NCBI RefSeq assembly: GCF_000417875.1
Contig: NW_006920876.1
Location: 536,678 to 600,677, forward strand
From: Pseudozyma flocculosa PF-1
Lineage: Eukaryota; Basidiomycota; Ustilaginomycetes; Ustilaginales; Ustilaginaceae
Reading direction: 5' to 3'
DNA: 64,000 nucleotides
The notes under the pieces: generated by a model
Database searches by the model: none
Seen by the model: only the letters and a program-made list of their open reading frames with translations
What the model was told of the DNA's origin: nothing
Translations under genes and position numbers: made by a program
Shown here: piece by piece, positions 4,001 through 15,100 of the stretch
How positions within the stretch are numbered: the stretch's first letter is position 1
Layout: each line of letters starts with the position of its first letter

Positions 4001-4198
4001 GTGCTGCTGGAGCAGGAGCGGCTCGTGTCGGGCTACGTCGAGAGCGCCAGCCGCGCGCGCAAGTTTGACGACGCGCGCACGCTCAAGGCGAGCCACGACG
4101 ACCTGTGCCGCGAGATCTTGCGCATGCAGAGGAAGCTCGTCGTCAAGGGCCAGGGAAGGGCCGGTGCGGCGGCGGCGTCAGCGTCGGCGGCAGGGTAG
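1038..4198 (+). CDS. PEP7: FYVE zinc-finger endosomal protein, PEP7/VAC1 (Rabenosyn-5) type
   Basis: Six exons: 1038-2228, 2333-2907, 3010-3067, 3145-3215, 3314-3554, 3644-4198, all with GT-AG introns; 896 residues. Residues 1-400 are Ser/Pro/Ala-rich and look disordered. A FYVE finger spans about 468-587: the WxxD element (WQDD, 468), a CPIC pair (477/480), the PI3P-binding RKHHCRLCG signature (489-497) and a final CRDC pair, with a long insert between the third and fourth Cys pairs. A Rabenosyn-type coiled region follows, then an acidic Asp run and a C-terminal helix (LEEQLGVLLEQERL) resembling the Rab-binding tail. Family members bind PI3P and Rab5/Vps21 on endosomes and work with Vps45 and syntaxin in Golgi-to-endosome fusion. 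The family call is firm; equating it with yeast Pep7/Vac1 is inference. The start is the first ATG before the open first exon. Confidence 0.85.
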
Positions 4199-4830
4199 CA
4201 TGGGTACGAGGGCGGCGCGGTGCAGAGAAGCGAATGCGGAGCCAAGCGACGCGCCCATCATGATGCAATGATCGCAGACAGGAGCTGGAGAGGTGCCAGC
4301 CCACCCACGCCATGCGGCCCCACTTTTGATGATACGGCCCCGACCTCGTCGTCTACAACGCGCGTCCAGGCGCAGACGAGCGAGGGGCGTCGATGGCAGG
4401 CCGGCCTGGCCCTGTCGACGACGGCCAGCGCGACGGACGCGAAGCAGTCGAGGGGCCCAGCCAGCCAGTCAGAGTGAGTGGAGGTTGGGCCGACGGCGTC
4501 GGCTTGGCAAAGGGGGTCCCTGCATGGCCCGCTGGCCTGCGCCCGCCCCGCCGACTCAGGGGCCAACGACGGTCGCTGCCAGGCCGACTCCAGACCGGAC
4601 CCCACCGCTCGTCAGGTCGCCGCCCGCCGCGTGCAGCATCTTCTTGGTTGTCCACCACCCTCGCCTCGCCCCTCGCCCCGGACTCGCCATCAGGTATCGC
4701 GCCCATCTGCCCTCACTCCCCTGCCCTCTCTGCCTCATCTTGCTCACTCGTCTCGGACTGCTCAGACATCGATACCCCACAACGAGGCCGCCCCAGACCG
4801 TCCCCGCTCCATACCTTCTCGTCCGGCGAC
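4199..4830. other. Intergenic, promoter region of the SAC gene
   Basis: This 630-bp gap lies between the FYVE gene stop and the preferred SAC start. The SAC reading frame is open back to an ATG at 4393, so a longer N-terminus cannot be excluded, but the extension is low-complexity and matches no SAC feature. Confidence 0.5.
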
Positions 4831-7662
4831 ATGCCCGCCAGCTGGACAGCACCGCCATGGTCCGCCTCCATCCCAGTCCCAGAGCAGAAGCTAGGCCTGG
4901 TGGTCACCGCCGACGGCCTCTACGTCCTCCCGCGCACCCGCTCCCCCGCCGAGCTCAACCACGCCCACCGCTCGCATCACGGTCACGCCCACTCGGCCTC
5001 GACCCCCGCCACCACTGCCTCGGCCCCGCCGACCGACGTCCATAGCAAGGGCAGCAGTGCCGGCAGCAGCAGCAGTAGCAGCAGCAACAACAACAACAAC
5101 AGCAACAGCGGCAGCGGCAACAACAAGTTCAACCCTTTCAGCGCCGCAAAGCGCCTCACCAATGCCAGCCTGGGCCTACGTCTGGCCGCCAGCCCGTCGC
5201 CCTCGCCCTCGACATCGCACACCGCCTCGCCAGCCGTACAGACGAGCTCCTCGCCTCTTCCCGATGCAGTGCGAATAGGCTGGGGCAGGGAAGGAGGGCT
5301 GGACCGCGTCCCCTACTCGCAATGGAGCTCCCTCTTCGACGGGCAACGGGACGGCGCTCCAACCGCCGAGCCATCGACCAGGGCCGAGACCGAGTTCGAG
5401 GAACTGCTCGTCCACGGCATCGTCGGCCTCGAGCGCCTCTTCAACCGCGCCTACCTCTTTGTCGTCACCGGCCGCAAAGAGGCCGGCGAGATCGGACACC
5501 CGTCCCGCAAAGTCTTCTGCTGCTCTGGAGTCCTCGCCATCCCGCTCGACGAGGAAAAGGCCCGCGAGCTCATCAGAGCGCAGATCGCAAAGGAAAAGTC
5601 GCACAGCTCGTCGTCGGCGGCGGCGACGGCGGCGGCGGCTGCGGCTGCGGCCAAGGAGGGGCAGAAGGGGTCGAGCGGAGGCGATGACGACGACGACGAC
5701 GACGACGACGGGTCTACCGAGGACGACGAGAGCGATACGGAAGACGACGACGAGGACGTCATGGACGACGTCGAGACGCCTGCTGCCATCCCGCGCGAGC
5801 CGTTCTTCTCCGACCGACAGCTTGGGTCCGGCTCCGCGACGGTCCGCGCTCCCAAGTCGAGGCCGTGGTCCAATCGGGACAACGTGCGCACGTTTTCGCA
5901 GAGTCGGCTTGGGACAGTCGAGACGCACGAGCACGAGGCTGGCTCGGGCGAGACGGACGAAGTCGACCTGCCCACGTCGGACCCTCTTGCGGCAAAGGGC
6001 GAGAAAGGTGAGGCAGGCAACGAGGGCGAGGGCGACGACGCGCAGCAGGTGCAGCAAGACTCGGCGGCGGAAGCGGCGTTGTCGCCGGACGCCTCGCCAG
6101 ACGAGCAATGGCGGCAGGCGACGCGCATCGAGCTCGAAGAGAAAGTGGTCAAGGAGACGAGCAAGCACTTTGCGCGGGGCGAGTTCTGGTTCGCCTACAC
6201 GTTTGACCTAACCACGTCGATGCAGAAAAAGTACGACGCCCTCGCCGCCGCTCAACAGCAGCCGCAGCAGCGCAAGACGGCGGCGGCGGCGGCGGCGGCA
6301 TCGTCAGCCCATCGAGAGGCCGGGTCCGAGACGACGGCAACGGCAACGGCGACGGCAACGGCGACGGCGACGGCAACGCAGCGTCCGCTCATGGACGAGC
6401 CCCACGCCAACCTGGCGCTCTGGAGGAGGGTGGACCGCCGTTTCTGGCACAACGAGCACCTCTGCCGCGATCTCATCGCCGCCGGGCTCGACGCCTTTAT
6501 CCTACCACTCATGCAGGGCTACCTGCAGATCGTCCCGCTGCCCCTCGATTCGATCGCTGGCGACGATGCCGACGAACCAGCGGCCGTCGCGGGCGAAGCG
6601 TCTTCGTCGGCGATGGAGACTGAGACCGAGATGGAGACGGAAGTAGCGCCCGCCGCGACGCTGGTGGTCATCTCGCGACGGAGCAAGGAACGCGCCGGGC
6701 TGCGGTACCAGCGCCGAGGGATCAACGAAGCGGGCCAGGTGGCCAACTTTGTCGAGACCGAGCAGATTCTCTTCCTCGACCTCCATCCCGCCTCTCCTCC
6801 CTCGTCATCATCGTCGACGACGACGTCGAGCGCGATGGCGACGGAGGGTACGGCGCACCTCTTCTCCTTCTACCAGATCCGGGGCTCGATCCCGCTCTTC
6901 TGGTCCCAGTCGCCCTTTTCGCTCAAGCCGCCGCCGGTGCTCGAGCGCGCCCAGGCCGAGAATGACGAGGCGTGCCGCAGGCACTTTGACGTCCAGACGC
7001 GCCGGTACGGCAAGCTGGTCTGCGTCAACCTAGCCGAGCAGGGCGGCAAGGAGGGTGTCATCTCGAAGCGCTACCGCGAGACGGTGCAGCGCCTCGCCGC
7101 CTACGCCGACGAAGGCGAGCTCGACCGCGACGACGCCGTTGTGGCCGGGACGGGCCCTGCTGCGACCACCAAGATGGTCGGGTACCGCGACTTTGACTTC
7201 CACAAGGAGTGCGCCGGGATGAAGTTTGAAAACGTGAGTAGCACCGGGCGGTACTGGTGTCGTCGTCCCGGCGGTTGCAGTCCCACCAGCGTCATGCAGC
7301 TCACCTCGTCCTTCTCGCCTCCTCCCTCCCTCGCCCGCTCCATCACCCTCCCCGCGCGGACACAGGTGCAAAACCTCATCCGCGATACGGCATCGACGCT
7401 GAGCCACTTTTCCTTTTTCCACCTCTGCTCGCCCTCGCCCTCGCCCTCGTCGACGCGGGCCGGGGGCGCCCAACACGAGGTCCGATCGAGACAGAGGGGC
7501 ACGTTCCGCACGTCATGCCTCGACTGCCTGGACCGCACCAACGTCGTCCAGTCGGCTTTTGCCCGCGTCGTGCTCCAGGGCTGGCTCGATGGCGTCGGCA
7601 TCGGCGGTCAGGCATCGGCCTCTGAGTCCTCCTCCTCCGCCGGCGGCGAGGGGCCAAAGTGA
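4831..7662 (+). pseudogene. SAC-domain phosphoinositide phosphatase, 5' half of a broken gene
   Basis: Two exons (4831-7233 and 7366-7662) give 899 residues. The protein has a Sac2-like N-terminus with Ser/Asn, Asp and Ala runs. A SAC core follows: HGIVGLERLF, the Trp/Phe-rich block around RRVDRRFWHNEHL, RGSIPLFWSQ, FDVQTRRYG, and the catalytic CX5RT motif CLDCLDRT (catalytic Cys 852). SAC enzymes remove phosphates from phosphoinositides on membranes. The frame ends with TGA only 47 residues after the catalytic Cys. The last 100 or so residues of a normal SAC fold are missing here and lie on the opposite strand at about 9480-9270. The TGA falls inside a 10-bp word also present at 9795-9804. 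The intron (132 bp) is a multiple of three and open. Either this is a true gene break or the assembly flipped a segment. Family assignment is very sure; whether the locus works is not. Confidence 0.85.
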
Positions 7663-7667
7663 TCAGG
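7658..7667. repeat. 10-bp repeat at left breakpoint of the inverted SAC segment
   Basis: AGTGATCAGG occurs here and again in the same orientation at 9795-9804, flanking the segment that carries the 3' half of the SAC gene on the - strand. The core TGATCA is its own reverse complement, so it can serve as a junction for inversion. The TGA ending the 5' half lies within it (7660-7662). Confidence 0.8.
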
Positions 7668-7820
7668 GCCGATGTCCATGTCGGCTCCCACCTGTCTCGT
7701 CTCGTCTCGTCTCTATCGCCTCTACGGGCCCACCGCTCGATCTCATCCGAATGCAGTGCGCGGAGATCGGTGCCGCTCAGTCAGGCCGAGGCTGAGTTCG
7801 AGTGGCATGGACGCGCGTGC

Positions 7821-7866
7821 CAGGCAGGCGGGCAGGCGGGCAGGCGGGCAGGCAGGCAGGCAGGCA
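7821..7866. repeat. (GGCA/GGCG)n tetranucleotide repeat
   Basis: About 11 degenerate GGCA/GGCG units. It lies just past the stop codon of the - strand SAC fragment, so probably in its 3' untranslated region. Confidence 0.85.
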
Positions 7867-7985
7867 AAAAGCGGCGACATGGCGGGGGTATACGAGCGGC
7901 CCCGGCCCGATCTCTGCGCCTTGCACCTCAGGAGGCAGTCTTCGGGCCGGACACGCTAAGGCGTCGGTCGATGTTCGTCGGTCGA

Positions 7986-9794
7986 TCAGAGCCACAACCT
8001 CCGTTTGAGACCTTCGATGAGCGGACCCAGGTACCCGGCGTTGGCCTTGGCCGCTTCGAGGCTGTCGTCGCAGGAGCACGCGCGAGAAAAAGGGGCCGCA
8101 GCAGCGCACCGTACCGTCAGCGCCGCTCGTACCTGCACAGGGGGACCCGACTCGACTCGACGCGACGCGACGCGGTGCGACCGGCCAAGGCACCCACTCA
8201 CCTCTGGACGGTGCCGCTCTTGAGAAACTCCTCGTCATCCTCGCCGGTACACGCCCCGACGTCCTGGCAGCACCGGACGAGGAGGTCGACGATGCGCTTG
8301 ACAGTCTGCTTGCTCGTCGCTGTGCCGCCGTCGCTTTCCGTCGTGTCCTTTCGCGATCGGGCGCGACTCGGCGATGGCGACGACGCCGATGCGGACGGCA
8401 ACGGCACGTTGAGGTGGAAGCCGAAGCGCGATCCGACCGTCGGCGCCGCCTTGGGCGAGGCGCTCAAGTCGAGATCGTCCGAGATGGCACGGAAGGCGAG
8501 CAGCCGGCTCGTTCCCGCCGGCAGAGAGGCGGGGCTGGGCAGCTTGATCGACGTCGTCGAGTGCGCTCTGCGTTGCACGTCGGTGCGTGGGACGTGGAAG
8601 GACGTCGGGGGGTCAGGATCGGTTGCGAGACGGCGGCGGGCGGGACGACGAGGGCACTCACCGGCTCTCGTCGTTGAGGTAGGTGATGACAAAGCCCCAG
8701 TTGTCCTCGGGATGGTGGCCCTCGTTGGGGTTGATGATGTAGAGTCCTGTGGGGTCGGCGGGCAGATTAGCGGCTGGTCGTCAGCATCGTGGTCCTGACA
8801 GTCTGCACTGCTGTCCTCCCGGCGACAGACTCACCTTCCTTGATGCCGATGATGTCGCCGACCAGCACCTTTGTGAACTGCGAGAGCCGTTCGCCGCCAA
8901 AGTCGTAGCTGCACACGTAGAGGGCCTTGCGCGTCTGTATTCGTTGGCAAGAGGTGGGATGGGGTGAGTGAGGCGCCCATCCGCCAGGGCCCACATCAGC
9001 ATTCGGCCGAGGGCAGAGTGGCCTGCGCGTCGGGGAAACGAGGTTGGCCTAGTTCCCGACGACGACACTCACGAGCAGGACGACCTTTTCCTCGAGCTTC
9101 GCCGACTGGATCTGGTTTGGCTCGACGGGAGAGCAGAGCGTCCACCCTCCAACAAGCGTCTCGTCGTTGGGGATGACCTCGGCCTTGCAGCTCTCGATGG
9201 CGCTGGCGCGCACGCGCACGAGGCGCACCGCCTCGGAGGGGTCGCGCGAATCGAGATCATCGTAGTACCTCTCGAGCCCGGCGATGCCGATCGAGCCGTA
9301 GACAAAGTCGAGCACCGTCTGGCGGAAAAAGTCGGTGACGGCGCCCTGGACCATGCGGTACACGCTGTTGGTGGCGTCGTTGATCATGCCCATGAAGCTG
9401 CGCTTGCCGGTGCGCGTGAAGTCGACCTTGAGCGCGTCGGTGTTGGAGTAGCAGTGCGATATGGCGTTGGCGTTGTTGGCCCAGACGTCGTTGAAGGCGG
9501 CATCGAGCGCCTTTTCCGAGACGACGAAGCGCGGGCGGCGCTGGCGGGCGGGAGAAGTGACGGTGGTGGTGGGGCCCGACGGCGCTGCGGGTGCGACCTG
9601 CTCCTCGATGGCGGCTGTGGGCTGCGGCGGTGCCACGGATGCGGGTGCTACCGCCGTAGCGGCCTTGTCTGCGGTCATCGCGTCGAGGTGGCCAAGAGGG
9701 ATGGTCGAGGTGATGGTGGTAGCAGCAGCGACAGCGACGGAGGTGGCGGGGTGGGGACGCTCTTTGGGCGCTGTTGCCGCTGCAGCCCCTGAAG
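7986..9794 (-). pseudogene. SAC-domain C-terminus plus hSac2 domain, 3' half of the broken phosphatase gene
   Basis: Exons in transcript order: about 9794-9073, 8934-8835, 8746-8662, 8567-8202, 8061-7986, all with GTGAGT donors. The first exon contains the end of a SAC domain (FNDVWANNANAISHCY, ALKVDFTRTGKRS, DFFRQTVLDFVYG). The following exons give an hSac2/INPP5F-type domain (ALYVCSYDFGGERLSQF, DIIGIKEG, NWGFVITYLNDES) and a conserved tail ending RRLWL. There is no CX5RT catalytic motif, so the piece cannot be a phosphatase alone. It supplies exactly what the + strand half at 4831-7662 lacks. The first in-frame ATG is at 9678, inside a Pro/Ala/Thr linker, and the frame stays open back to the breakpoint. 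Either the 3' part of the gene was inverted in place or the assembly is wrong here; an independent functional gene is less likely. Confidence 0.85.
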
Positions 9795-9804
9795 AGTGAT
9801 CAGG
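9795..9804. repeat. 10-bp repeat at right breakpoint of the inverted SAC segment
   Basis: Second copy of AGTGATCAGG, same orientation as the copy at 7658-7667. The similarity extends weakly on both sides (AGAG/AAAG before, CCC/GCC after). Confidence 0.8.
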
Positions 9805-10156
9805 CCCTGCAGCAGCACAAGCAGCCCTCCACACCCATCTGGACCAACACCGCTCGAGGGCTTTCTTTGGCTGGCTGGCCTGGCTCGGCTCTGCGCTGCT
9901 CTGCTGGTTGTGTCTGTTTCGGCCTGGTCCGTTGCTCGCGGCTCTTCCGACCCTCGACAAGCTTCCCTTCAGCGATCCGCCTGCTCCCACAGGACGCATT
10001 ACTGCTGCTGCTGCCGCCGCTCGACATCAGCCCTTCAGCGACGCACGGCCCAAAGGCCGGCTGCATCGGGCGCAGCAAGCCAAGCGCGGCTTCTTCTTCC
10101 TCCGCTGCCCTCGACTCGACTCTGCGCGCAAACCACCGCCAGCCGCAGCGACCGCC
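9805..10156. other. 5' region of the TBC gene
   Basis: Pyrimidine-rich sequence ahead of the TBC-domain ATG. It probably carries that gene's promoter and leader. No coding feature or RNA gene was seen. Confidence 0.45.
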
Positions 10157-12113
10157 ATGGGCTCCGCCACCGTCGAAGAGTACATCGAACTGCTCAACGC
10201 GGAGCAGCACGTCGACCTCCAGAAGCTGCGCGACTATGCCCGCCACGGCACCCAGCCCGACGTGCGCGGAGAGGTGTGGCTCTACCTCCTCGGCGTCCTC
10301 TCCGACGACAAGGGCCAGGAGATGACCTCGGTCCGCAGCAAGTACCTCGAGTACGAGCAGATGGACAAGCACAGCCCCGCCCTCGAGAAGCGCATCCGCG
10401 CAGAGTGCTCGAGGTACTACCAGAAACGCCTGGCCGCTCGTCCGCCACCGGGGCGCAGCCTGATGCAGTCGAGTGAGTACGAGGGAGTGGTGTCGGCACG
10501 GCCCGTGTCTGACCTTCAGATCCACGCACGTCCTTTCCCCTCCTGCTCACACCTTGCCCTCTAACCCTCTGGCACCCCGAAACGATCGCAGGCCGTACCA
10601 TCGGATCCCGTCCGCCCGGCAGCACAGCCTCGGCCTCGTACTCGCGCCTGCACAGTGACGGCGCAGGCGTGGCCGTCGGCGGGGCGTCGACCAGCGGCTC
10701 GGCCAGCAATGCCATCGTCGTCAGCCTCGACCGCGGCCCCAACCGCGTCAACGACGGTCGCATCCACGCCCTCGGCGGCATCATTGGCGACAACGGCGTC
10801 ACCGCCGCCATGGATGCCGACGACCCCGAGGCAGTCGCGGCCGCAGAGCTCAAACGCTTCGGTCGCAGCGTCGAGAACGTCATCTGCGCCTACCTCAACC
10901 GCTACAGCCACCCTTCGCGCCACACCCGCGAACAGAGCCGCGGCCACGGCCTCGGCCCCCATCACACAAGTCTGGACCGCTACGGCAACTCGTCGACGAG
11001 CTCGTCGATACAGGGCCACAGCTCCGACGTTGACGACCCGGGCCTCTCGCAGGCGCATCCGTCGCGGTCAGATGGCGTGTCGGCGCTCGAGTCGGCGGTC
11101 GACGCCACAAGCTCAGAGGACGGGTCAATATCGCGGCAGCATTCGGCCCATGTGCACCATCACAACCACCACCAGCAGTCACAGCAGCACCTGCACAGAG
11201 AACGCGAGGGGCCGGGCTCGAGGTCGCGCTCGAGGGCGCCCTCGACCGGCCAGACGCTCGAGGGGTCGCTCAAGGCCCGCATGCCACGCGAGTACGAGTG
11301 GATGCCTCAGATCGAGACGACAAGAGACGACGGCACCAACGCCGGGCCCGGCAGCGGCCTTGCTGGCGGCGGGAGCCGTGGTGGTGGTGCTGCGGGGACG
11401 CCACGCGAGTTCCACCCGGCGCTCGTCTACCTCTGCGCGCCGTTCGTCAAGTGCATCCGGGTCGAGGCGGGCATGTACTTTGCCTTTGAGAGGCTCATGA
11501 CCATGATGGCCGAGTACAACGCGCGCAAGCCGCTGCCGCTGCAGGTGGCCACCTTTCTCACCCTCTTCCGCACCACGCTGCCCGAGCTGCACTCGTACTT
11601 CGAAGAGGAGGAGGTCGACATCATCAGCGTCGCCACAAACTGGCTGCAGCACCTGCTGGCCGGCGAGCTGCGCATCGAGGATCTGATGCGGCTGTGGGGT
11701 GAGTGCGGCGGTCCCTCGCCCGTCGAAGGCACGCGCGCTGACCGCTCGACTTTGCGTCTGCCCCGGCCTCCTCGGCTCGCTGCTGCAGACACCTACTTTG
11801 CGGTCGCCGATCCGATCGACCTCCATCTCTACGTCTGCATCGCCATCCTCACCAACTGCAAGGACTCGCTCGAGGAGCTCGACCGGTCAGAGACGAGAAG
11901 CATGCTCTACAGCCTTCCGCCGCAGGACATCGATCGGGTGCGTGAGCGATGCGGTTCTCCGTGCGCGTCGTTGGATCTCGCTGACCGTCGCGATCCCCCC
12001 GCTGGCGCGACCGATGCTCTTCGCAGGTCGTCAACGAGGCGATCAACATACGTCTGAGCCATCAGCAGGCGTTGAGGGAGCAGGAGGAGGAGACCGAGGA
12101 GGCGGACGTCTGA
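10157..12113 (+). CDS. TBC-domain protein (Rab GTPase-activating-like)
   Basis: Four exons: 10157-10472, 10592-11698, 11789-11937, 12027-12113; 552 residues. The N-terminus carries the TBC entry motif VRGEVWLYLLGVL. A long Ser/Gly/His-rich disordered insert follows (about residues 105-400). The second part of the fold continues with FHPALVYLCAPFVKC, the Phe-rich helix AGMYFAFERLM, FEEEEVDIISVATNWLQHLL and LRIEDLMRLWD, ending with an acidic tail. TBC proteins stimulate GTP hydrolysis by Rab GTPases in vesicle traffic. The Gln-finger motif (YxQG) expected in this fold is not visible where the insert sits, and the arginine-finger motif is degenerate (IRAECSR), so catalysis may be lost or atypical. 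The neighbours (FYVE and SAC genes) fit an endosomal role; that link is inference. Confidence 0.8.
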
Positions 12114-15100
12114 GACCAGGGCAGGCAGCCCGACAGGGCCGCTGCTCTCGGCCGGCTGAGATGCGCTTCCGTAGCCCACCGGCGTCACGCCAGCGCTGTC
12201 TGCGTGAAAAGAACCCCCAAAATGGCGAGGAATTCTCCCCTACCTTCAGCCATCGATCGAGGTCTTGCCCGATTGCCGCTGTCGTAACACGGCACACAGG
12301 GTAAGGGCTCGTGGCCCGGCCGGCGCCCGCTACGTCCGCCACGAATCTTGAATACGATCAGATTGACGGCATGCTCCATCGATGCGAGGACATGTCACCC
12401 GACGGGTTCCCACGCAGACAACCCCGGAATCGACCGCGGAACATCCCTGCTGCCTTGTCAGCGCGATCCTGCCGCTGCGCTCGCCGCTGGCAACGGGACA
12501 ACAGAGAGAGCGCACGATGATAGCGATGCACAGCGGACGAGCAGGCAGACGCCTCTGATCAGCCAAAGGCCCACGACAAGATCTTCGCATGCGGAGCCGT
12601 CGACGACCTTACCCATCGTCCATCATATCGGTAATCGCCTTCGCTCGATGCCGAGTGCACGACAGGTACGACGCTGATCGTGAGGACGAGCACGATGACA
12701 GGATCACGCTTTCTGACTGAGCGACCCCTATCCACTCACTTATCACGCAGATGCGAGCCGCTGTTGATCTCGGTCACGAAGCAGGAAGGATCGACCGATG
12801 ATCCGCAGATCCTCGCCAGGCCTTCACATGCCATTTGCAGGCGGCTGGCGGCGATGGCGGAGGACAAGCCCATCGCTAGAACCCTCGTCGCTTTTCGGCT
12901 CCGTCGATGCGGCGACAGCTGCGGGCCTCACACGTACGAGAAATGCTCAATTTCCTCTCCGCGGCTGCGCCTGTCTCATACGGGGACCAGGTAGGGCCCC
13001 CTCGAAGTTGAGCCGTCATTTCGAGGGTGCGTCTCATCTTCCTGCGACGATCGACCGACCCCCCGCCGGCCACCTTACTCTCCTCCCCGTCTCCATCTCG
13101 CCAGTCGCCACCCTCTTCTTCCAGTAACCTGCAGTGAGGCGGTCCCAGCGGGCAGCGAGCAAACGCCGAAAGCCTCGAGCCTCTCCGCGTGGGGGATGGG
13201 TCGGCCGACTTCTCTCCGCCAGCACCCTCGATCAACTGGATCGTCTGCTCGGCATCCGCCTGTCCGAGATCGACGTTGACCGCCGCTCTACGGACCGTGA
13301 GACCTCGACGTGAATCAGGGTGGCGAACGTGAGTTGACCCGCCTTGCCTTGCCCTGCCTGCCTGCCGTGACATCCTCGCACCTAGCGGTACAGCCTGGCC
13401 CGCCACGCGCCACGCAGCACGCTGGGTCAGACACCATTTGCCGCCGCGTAGAGTGTAGTTCGCCGAAACGAGGGCCCCACATCTAGCTTGCTTGTCCCTC
13501 GACTGGAACGGCATCCGAGCCAAGCCAATGCCAGGCATGCTTGCAGGTCCAGACAAAGGAGACCAGCTTCGCTCGGCAGTTATCCTCGACCATACTGTGG
13601 CGCGCCGATGCGGGCATGTCGGTTTGGCCGGTTCCTAGCCTGGCATATCGATGAGTGGCGCTGGATTGCCGGATGAAAGAGGGCCGACAAGGTGCGAGCA
13701 CATCGGTATCCACCCACCCTCGGTCAGCTCCGACGAGCGAAGGCGAGCTGGTCGTGAGAGGTTTTCAGGGCAGGACGATGGCAAGGAGGCGCGGGGTCAA
13801 AGAGGCTCCCTCCGCGCGTCGAGCCGGCAGGCCTCAGGCATGGACGGGACCGGTCGCCGTCCTTCCCGCGCGCCCTGCGCAGTCTCTTTCGAGGGTGGCC
13901 TTGCTTCCCACCGCGAGCGGACCGAGCCAGCGACGGAGGATCCGACGATCACACAGAAGAGGGGGGAGCCGTGAACGAGATCCAGACGAAAAGATCAGCG
14001 GCGGGCTGATAATCAGACATTCCAGCTCCGCGGCCAGTCAGGCATGGCAGTCTTGGAGAGTGCACCCTGAAACGTCGTGGGAAGGTCATTCACGCTCTCG
14101 TCGAGCCCTCGTGATCGCGGCCGGCTCCGGTAGCGTGCGTGCTGAGATGGATTCTACCGTATTTACTTAGGTACCCGGGCAGCGCAACTGATGGCGAGGC
14201 TGGACTGCTCTGGACCGAAGCGACGATCGCTGCTCGCCCCTATCGAGGCCGATGGGACGAGGCAACGGCTCCCACCAGTCCCCGGAAACCGAGCCCCTAT
14301 CCTACCTAGTGCCGGTGCGTCTCGCTGTTTGGGCTCATCGCGGATCAAGTAGCAGGTTCTTGGCGGCGTGTCGGCTGTACGCCCATCGGGAAGGCCAAAG
14401 CTCACCTACTCACACGATGGCTGCGCCGTGATAGAGGGGTTGGGTAGGGTAGATGGTGAGCCAGCGGACAGGCCAGGAACGAGGGCACATGCCGGCGTCG
14501 GGAAAATCCTCGGCGCGAAGATCTTTGACCCACCCTCGGCTCCTCTTCTTCGACGGGGGTGTTGGCCCCCCTGCCTGCCTTTGCCGCCGCTCTCCCGCCT
14601 GCTTCCGTGACTGCTGCAGATGAAGAGGCGGGGGGTTGCGTGTCCCCAAGGCAGGGTCCGGAAATTTGCCGGCAGAGACGCTCCAGGCCAGAGGCTCTTC
14701 GGGGGGTGATCACCGCTCGGGGCGCCGATGCCACATGGGGGAGCGGCCACCCTCGAATTCTGTGCGCTGCTTGACAGCCGTCCCCTCGAATTCTTCCTGC
14801 CTGCGCCTGCTACCTACCTGCCTGTCCCCCGAAGCTTGCTTGCCCGAGACTACTGCCGACGCCGGATCGTCGGTCGATCCGCGACACTTGGCTGCGCCTG
14901 TCCCCTCGTTTCGGGAGGGCCTGTTCCTGCCTGCGCCGCTCTCTGCTGGCGACCGGGCTTCTTCTGGCCACGACACCTGCCTACCGCCGCCCAAAATGGG
15001 GGATCCGGCGCTCTTGGCGGCCAAAACTTTGAGCTACTCGCAGCACGCCCCGGGCGATCCACCGTACATCCCGTAGCAGCTGTCGCTGCATGGACGATGG

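Follow-up and report, generated by a model that had tools for sequence, protein, structure and literature searches.

A SAC phosphatase gene divided within its catalytic domain in Pseudozyma flocculosa and related smut fungi

Introduction

The window studied here, a stretch of 64,000 nucleotides of Pseudozyma flocculosa PF-1 (contig NW_006920876.1, positions 536,678 to 600,677 of the forward strand), carries the two parts of a SAC phosphoinositide phosphatase on opposite strands. The question raised by this locus is whether an intact gene was broken here recently, as considered in a preliminary description of the window, or whether the enzyme is normally encoded in two pieces. We consider the best explanation to be an ancient, probably inversion-type gene fission whose products would re-associate as a two-chain phosphatase, and assign it a probability of roughly 60%. 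The fission itself is well supported by the split in this genome, its conserved position among relatives, the fused proteins of the outgroups and the conservation of both halves. Inversion as the mechanism, re-association of the products and retained phosphoinositide phosphatase activity are proposed from sequence comparison.

The two genes

The N half is a SAC phosphatase gene of two exons on the + strand (4831-7662), with a product of 899 residues. It contains the Syja_N domain (PF02383, SacI homology) with a Pfam E-value of 5.7e-74 and 249.6 bits against a cut-off of 27, and stops 48 residues from the first residue of the catalytic motif CLDCLDRTN. The C half lies on the - strand (9678-7986) in five exons, and its product of 410 residues comprises the remainder of the SAC domain together with hSac2 (PF12456; E-value of 9.4e-29, 99.8 bits against a cut-off of 26), without a CX5R motif. 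All four of its introns present a GTGAGT donor and a CAG acceptor, and the model is 100% identical to the deposited PFL1_02864 across the 410 residues. The SAC catalytic domain is not complete on one polypeptide, being divided at the loop past the P-loop helix, and hSac2 sits in the separate C-half gene rather than at the C terminus of the SAC protein. The features of both genes are as follows.

4831..7233, + strand: N-half exon 1, SAC (Syja_N) domain, ATG at 4831 (profile and sequence evidence)
7234..7365, + strand: N-half intron of 132 nucleotides, GTGAGT...CACAG, in frame and stop-free (sequence and splice-site match only)
7366..7662, + strand: N-half exon 2, with the catalytic motif and the stop (TGA at 7660-7662)
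7516..7542, + strand: catalytic CX5R(T) motif CLDCLDRTN, kept in 21 of 22 smut N halves examined
7663..7985, no strand: 3' interval common to both genes, 323 base pairs between the convergent stops
9073..9678, - strand: C-half exon 1, with its own ATG, the AVAP extension, the SAC catalytic remainder and the start of hSac2
9403..9483, - strand: post-break SAC signature WANNANAISHCYSNTDALKVDFTRTGK (sequence comparison)
8835..8934, - strand: C-half exon 2, hSac2 (gene model and Pfam)
8662..8746, - strand: C-half exon 3, hSac2 (gene model and Pfam)
8202..8567, - strand: C-half exon 4 (gene model)
7986..8061, - strand: C-half exon 5, ending in GPLIEGLKRRLWL before the stop (gene model and sequence comparison)

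The preliminary description had placed the SAC N-terminus and catalytic motif on the + strand with a stop at 7662, which the gene model and Pfam confirm. It had also read the end of SAC and hSac2, without the catalytic motif, in five well-spliced exons on the - strand; this holds as well, with the ATG at 9678. No clear remnant of either half was seen in the interval 7663..7985. The N-half intron lies upstream of the catalytic motif and, since it is in frame and stop-free, its retention would add 44 residues there.

The C half begins with an N-terminal extension, from 9678 to about 9520 on the - strand, which bears the motif AVAP. Of the 19 C halves extending to the post-break signature, 17 have this motif, the exceptions being T. 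frezii (P0122) and P0140; the linker of the fused Violaceomyces protein showed no such AVAP-bearing extension.

Split and fused proteins among relatives

Relatives were compared as proteins. The search with the N half yielded 954 matches, of which the best 120 were listed, and no deposited PF-1 N-half protein is among those 120. In the best 20, 19 matches contain PF02383 only, the exception being the fused Violaceomyces protein (P0013). The split species named are Thecaphora frezii, Pseudozyma hubeiensis, Moesziomyces antarcticus, M. aphidis, Ustilago trichophora, U. loliicola, U. tritici, Testicularia cyperi, Sporisorium graminicola and S. reilianum. These 19 matches, the window's own N half, P0026 (Melanopsichium) and P0048 (labelled Cichorium) make up the 22 N halves examined. 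CLDCLDRTN is present in 21 of them, with the protein ending 33-48 residues from the motif's first residue; P0026 is a model that ends ahead of the motif. Both domains occur in 88 of the 120 listed matches, including Violaceomyces, Ceraceosorus, Tilletiaria, Tilletia and mushrooms.

The remaining 11 listed matches with PF02383 only served as a control: 10 reach the block WANNGD and one, labelled partial, stops just short of it. Given that these non-smut proteins run on to or near WANNGD, they are truncated models of fused-type genes. They were accordingly rejected as apparent splits (P0021, P0023, P0024, P0025, P0027, P0033, P0038, P0065, P0086, P0087 and P0094), as they lack PF12456 yet run into or up to the post-break block.

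For the C halves, 26 of the 30 listed matches with PF12456 only were examined, omitting P0143 and P0150 (catalytic motif), P0149 (WANNGD type) and P0151 (Geosiphon); P0138, which bears the catalytic motif, is also outside the count. Nineteen of the 26 reach DFTRTGK, and all 19 start with Met and contain WANNANAISHCYSNTDALKV. This Met is 67-88 residues ahead of DFTRTGK in 16 of these, and three have longer predicted N termini. The other seven begin further downstream and are uninformative on the break; among them, at least P0146 apparently shares a contig with the fused-type N model P0023.

Separately sequenced genomes of Ustilaginales and of Thecaphora (Urocystidales) hence show the same split at the same protein position. 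A split common to such genomes is neither recent damage nor a switch nor an artefact of assembly, which contradicts the recent loss, switchable locus, polymorphism and assembly error that the preliminary description had entertained. Its claim that both parts belong to one polypeptide in this order is borne out by the fused homologues. Homologues with separate halves, the case it had set against its own account, are what this clade contains, with the gene fused in Violaceomyces, which represents the sister order Violaceomycetales, and in more distant fungi. These comparisons change the reading of the locus from a broken or switchable gene to what sequence indicates is an ancient, conserved fission.

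The pair P0048/P0148 (L1887_56518/56517), labelled Cichorium endivia, resembles a smut-type N half and C half, and is probably fungal contamination of the chicory assembly.

Timing of the fission

SAC and hSac2 are fused in Violaceomyces, Ceraceosorus, Tilletiaria, Jaminaea, Microstroma and Tilletia, the last five of which we take to be Exobasidiomycetes. In the NCBI taxonomy, Thecaphora belongs to Urocystidales, P. flocculosa and Testicularia to Ustilaginales, and Violaceomyces to Violaceomycetales. A single fission in the ancestor of Ustilaginales and Urocystidales would account for this distribution.

The split-type proteins also differ in the post-break motif, with WANNAN instead of WANNGD and ALKVD instead of ALKGD. 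Among the 88 proteins bearing both motifs (of 248 fetched), 87 are of the WANNGD type and P0013 is the one that is not. Since the fused Violaceomyces protein already has WANNAN and ALKVD, the motif change predates the fission. Yeast Sac1 deviates at the same sites (WADNAD, ALKTD), so the change need not imply loss of activity.

Copy number and breakpoints

The P. flocculosa genome (33 contigs, 23.0 Mb) was searched with the fused protein P0013. Its residues 1-427 and 425-510 match the + strand of this locus (window positions of about 5761-7239 and 7363-7635), and residues 501-659, 653-691 and 688-717 match the - strand (about 9061-9534 and two short exons), with 59% identity over residues 1-427 and 78% over 501-659. 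The remaining matches are two other SAC genes (C1 and C5), each of which is one single-strand match across the corresponding point. PF12456 has two matches in the whole genome, both at this locus. By these searches, both elements are present and a composite copy is absent.

The preliminary description had proposed that inverting 7660-9802 would restore the gene. The opposite strands do suggest an inversion-type event, but those exact ends could not be confirmed: the 10-base identity found there (E-value of 0.21) is matched by two other 10-mers of the same comparison. Within 4001-12500, none of the 25 longest inverted pairs (of 550) connects the proposed breakpoints, and the longest, 41 nucleotides at 76%, lies away from them. 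Precise breakpoints at TGATCA palindromes were also rejected, as TGATCA occurs seven times in the window and the 10-mer identity is not exceptional. No clear remnant of a duplicated gene was found by low-stringency tblastn of 4001-10160 outside the known exons (best E-value of 2.8e-4, 26% identity).

Linkage and neighboring gene

Among the six named relatives having both halves, the halves are linked in four, and the other two could not be judged. T. frezii (008290/008291), U. tritici (002529/002528), U. loliicola (001531/001532) and the pair labelled Cichorium (56518/56517) have consecutive locus tags for the two halves. In Testicularia both halves are apparently on the same contig, as they are on three further contigs. 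Consecutive tags alone are weak evidence, as a Geosiphon pair (000091/000090; P0086/P0151) has them and its N model reaches DFTRTGK.

The gene next to the C half is a TBC gene, divergent from it and starting 478 base pairs from its start codon.

10157..11937, + strand: TBC/GYP1-like Rab-GAP gene PFL1_02865, as far as modelled, with an intron at 10473-10591

Among the split species compared, the TBC gene adjoins the C half only in P. flocculosa. In the fused Tilletiaria, SAC and TBC are apparently on the same contig, and perhaps also in one further assembly (829055).

Constraint and phylogeny

Trees were built from 485 N-half and 302 C-half columns for seven split and 18 fused species. The seven split species present identical branching in both trees; in the fused part, the trees disagree at several nodes, some of them weakly supported. 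The mean ratio of C to N distances is 0.754 for the 21 split pairs and 0.826 for the 78 fused Ustilaginomycotina pairs. The correlation between N and C distances is 0.977 for split, 0.585 for fused and 0.854 for split-versus-fused pairs, the pairs not being independent. Mean distances to 13 outgroups are 1.616 (N) and 1.504 (C) for the split species, and 1.239 (N) and 1.294 (C) for Violaceomyces. These values indicate some acceleration in the split lineages, greater in N than in C and without collapse, and within the split set the C half is not relaxed relative to the N half. Constraint within the C half is greatest in the SAC catalytic tail and is not confined to hSac2.

Both trees join P. 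flocculosa with T. frezii (Urocystidales) to the exclusion of all other species, with a support of 100 in each, which conflicts with the NCBI placement of P. flocculosa in Ustilaginaceae.

Comparison with known systems

When the fused Violaceomyces protein is modelled, the break maps to a loop flanked by two helices of a Sac1 fold. The fused SAC+hSac2 phosphatases of Basidiomycota (Sac2/INPP5F-like; Violaceomyces palustris P0013, Ceraceosorus P0029) present the same domains in the same order, and P0013 shares the WANNANAISHCYSNTDALKV block with P. flocculosa; they are, however, one polypeptide, while P. flocculosa has two genes. The SAC fold is also that of yeast Sac1 (PDB 3lwt, 4tu3 and 8c81), with consecutive parts of which the relatives' halves align, as does the fused Violaceomyces model. 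The yeast Sac1 chains are single SAC proteins; P. flocculosa has two other SAC genes, each on a single strand. The human Sac2/INPP5F hSac2 domain (PDB 4xuu) differs in that the smut hSac2 accompanies the SAC tail in a separate protein.

Leonard and Richards (2012) reportedly describe gene fissions in fungi, with two element genes in one clade and the composite in others. Among the papers listed, no title or abstract opening describes this SAC/hSac2 split, although that study could include it. According to the available text of Durrens et al. 2008 (PMC2557144), fungal gene fissions likewise leave two element genes in one clade and a composite elsewhere; in P. flocculosa, by contrast, the break interrupts a catalytic domain, with the pieces lying on opposite strands. 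That 12-species survey lists Cryptococcus neoformans under Basidiomycota, and "Ustilago" is absent from its main text as available. In the available text of PMC6856015, Sac2 dimerises, deletion of hSac2 abolishes dimerisation, and hSac2 domains occur apart from SAC in vertebrate Mover and TPRG.

Discussion

The ancestral gene would have encoded a single SAC+hSac2 phosphatase, Sac2/INPP5F-like. It would have broken in the loop past the catalytic P-loop helix in the ancestor of Ustilaginales and Urocystidales, with Violaceomycetales already branched off, most simply by a small inversion that moved the 3' half to the opposite strand beside the 5' half. Each piece would then have acquired its own stop or start, and both were retained. 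The two proteins may come together again through non-covalent contacts as one SAC fold, in which the N half would contribute the Sac N-terminal subdomain and the CX5R P-loop, and the C half the catalytic remainder and hSac2, which could aid re-association. Re-association is favored because it is the most economical account of both halves staying conserved. An inversion origin is favored because the halves are on opposite strands and because SAC and TBC are apparently on the same contig in the fused Tilletiaria. Since both halves are conserved, the phosphatase was probably not turned off, contrary to the preliminary description.

Several observations weigh against this explanation. The opposite strands were observed at the DNA level in P. 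flocculosa only, and as locus tags give adjacency rather than strand, the convergent orientation is established in this species alone. Linkage could not be judged in S. reilianum, whose matches come from different strains, or in Melanopsichium, whose contig is not stated. Among the matches listed, only the N half appears for P. hubeiensis, Moesziomyces, U. trichophora and S. graminicola, and only the C half for Kalmanozyma and Ustilago sp. UG-2017a. TBC and SAC are apparently on different contigs in T. frezii, Testicularia, Kalmanozyma, S. graminicola, S. reilianum, P. hubeiensis and U. trichophora, and in the fused Violaceomyces and Ceraceosorus; the synteny is therefore not general. The grouping of all fused species has a support of 100 in the N tree and 58 in the C tree. 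The C/N ratio is 0.95 over the 119 split-versus-fused pairs without Violaceomyces, above that of either set alone, and the distance correlations count related pairs repeatedly. The split lineages are about 30% (N) and 16% (C) farther from the 13 outgroups than the fused Violaceomyces. Lastly, the predicted fold is that of the fused relative, not of two chains.

That the halves no longer cooperate, the N half being a truncated pseudo-phosphatase or acting solo and the C half an independent hSac2/PH-like lipid-binding or dimerising protein, is unlikely. Separate genes are free to diverge, Mover and TPRG show that hSac2 can exist without SAC, and most informative C halves carry the AVAP extension; yet the constraint on the C half is strongest in the SAC catalytic tail, the full CX5R motif is kept in all but one N half, trees and distances run parallel within the split set, and the halves are linked in each named relative that could be judged. 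It is likewise unlikely, slightly more so, that a same-strand split in the smut ancestor, through a new stop and start, was followed by inversion of the C half in P. flocculosa or its lineage only. The orientation data would allow it, being confined to this species, but a single event is enough for all the data, and P. flocculosa is nested in the split clade with Thecaphora. A tail-to-tail duplication of the entire gene with complementary loss afterwards, instead of a simple inversion, would lead to the identical end state and is the route reportedly taken by the Drosophila monkey-king family. We regard it as improbable, since the tblastn of 4001-10160 revealed no clear trace of a missing half near either gene, even if old remnants would have decayed. 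The available text of PMC2557144 cites that family for domain depletion.

Two further explanations bear on the transcripts and on the assembly. Trans-splicing of the two pre-mRNAs into one full-length phosphatase message would suit halves that adjoin on opposite strands, and the DNA does not speak against it. In the relatives examined, however, the N half has a stop and the C half a start of its own, each at a nearly constant position, which makes this very improbable. We know of no trans-splicing mechanism of such kind in smuts. A faulty assembly, or an intact gene broken recently at the strain level, among the options of the preliminary description, is scarcely credible: the same two proteins occur in other smut genera, separately sequenced, the longest inverted pair is short and away from the proposed breakpoints, and the deposited C-half protein is on two contigs.

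Under the favored explanation of an ancient fission, Ustilaginales and Urocystidales may possess an obligate two-subunit phosphoinositide phosphatase, with one active-site fold formed from two independently transcribed chains, the N chain bringing the P-loop and the C chain the catalytic remainder and hSac2. This possibility, which we hold tentatively and at slightly less than even odds, would make the conserved AVAP extension a candidate element for docking or control that arose with the fission, and the convergent genes might regulate each other via their common 3' interval. Gene fissions are usually pictured between domains, whereas this one lies inside a catalytic domain, just past the active-site motif, and both parts were retained across two fungal orders. 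It would thus be a case of an enzyme surviving breakage by rearrangement, and one that is directly testable. A natural split-phosphatase pair could serve as a split reporter or switch, and smut SAC annotations such as "related to SAC1" would cover half an enzyme.

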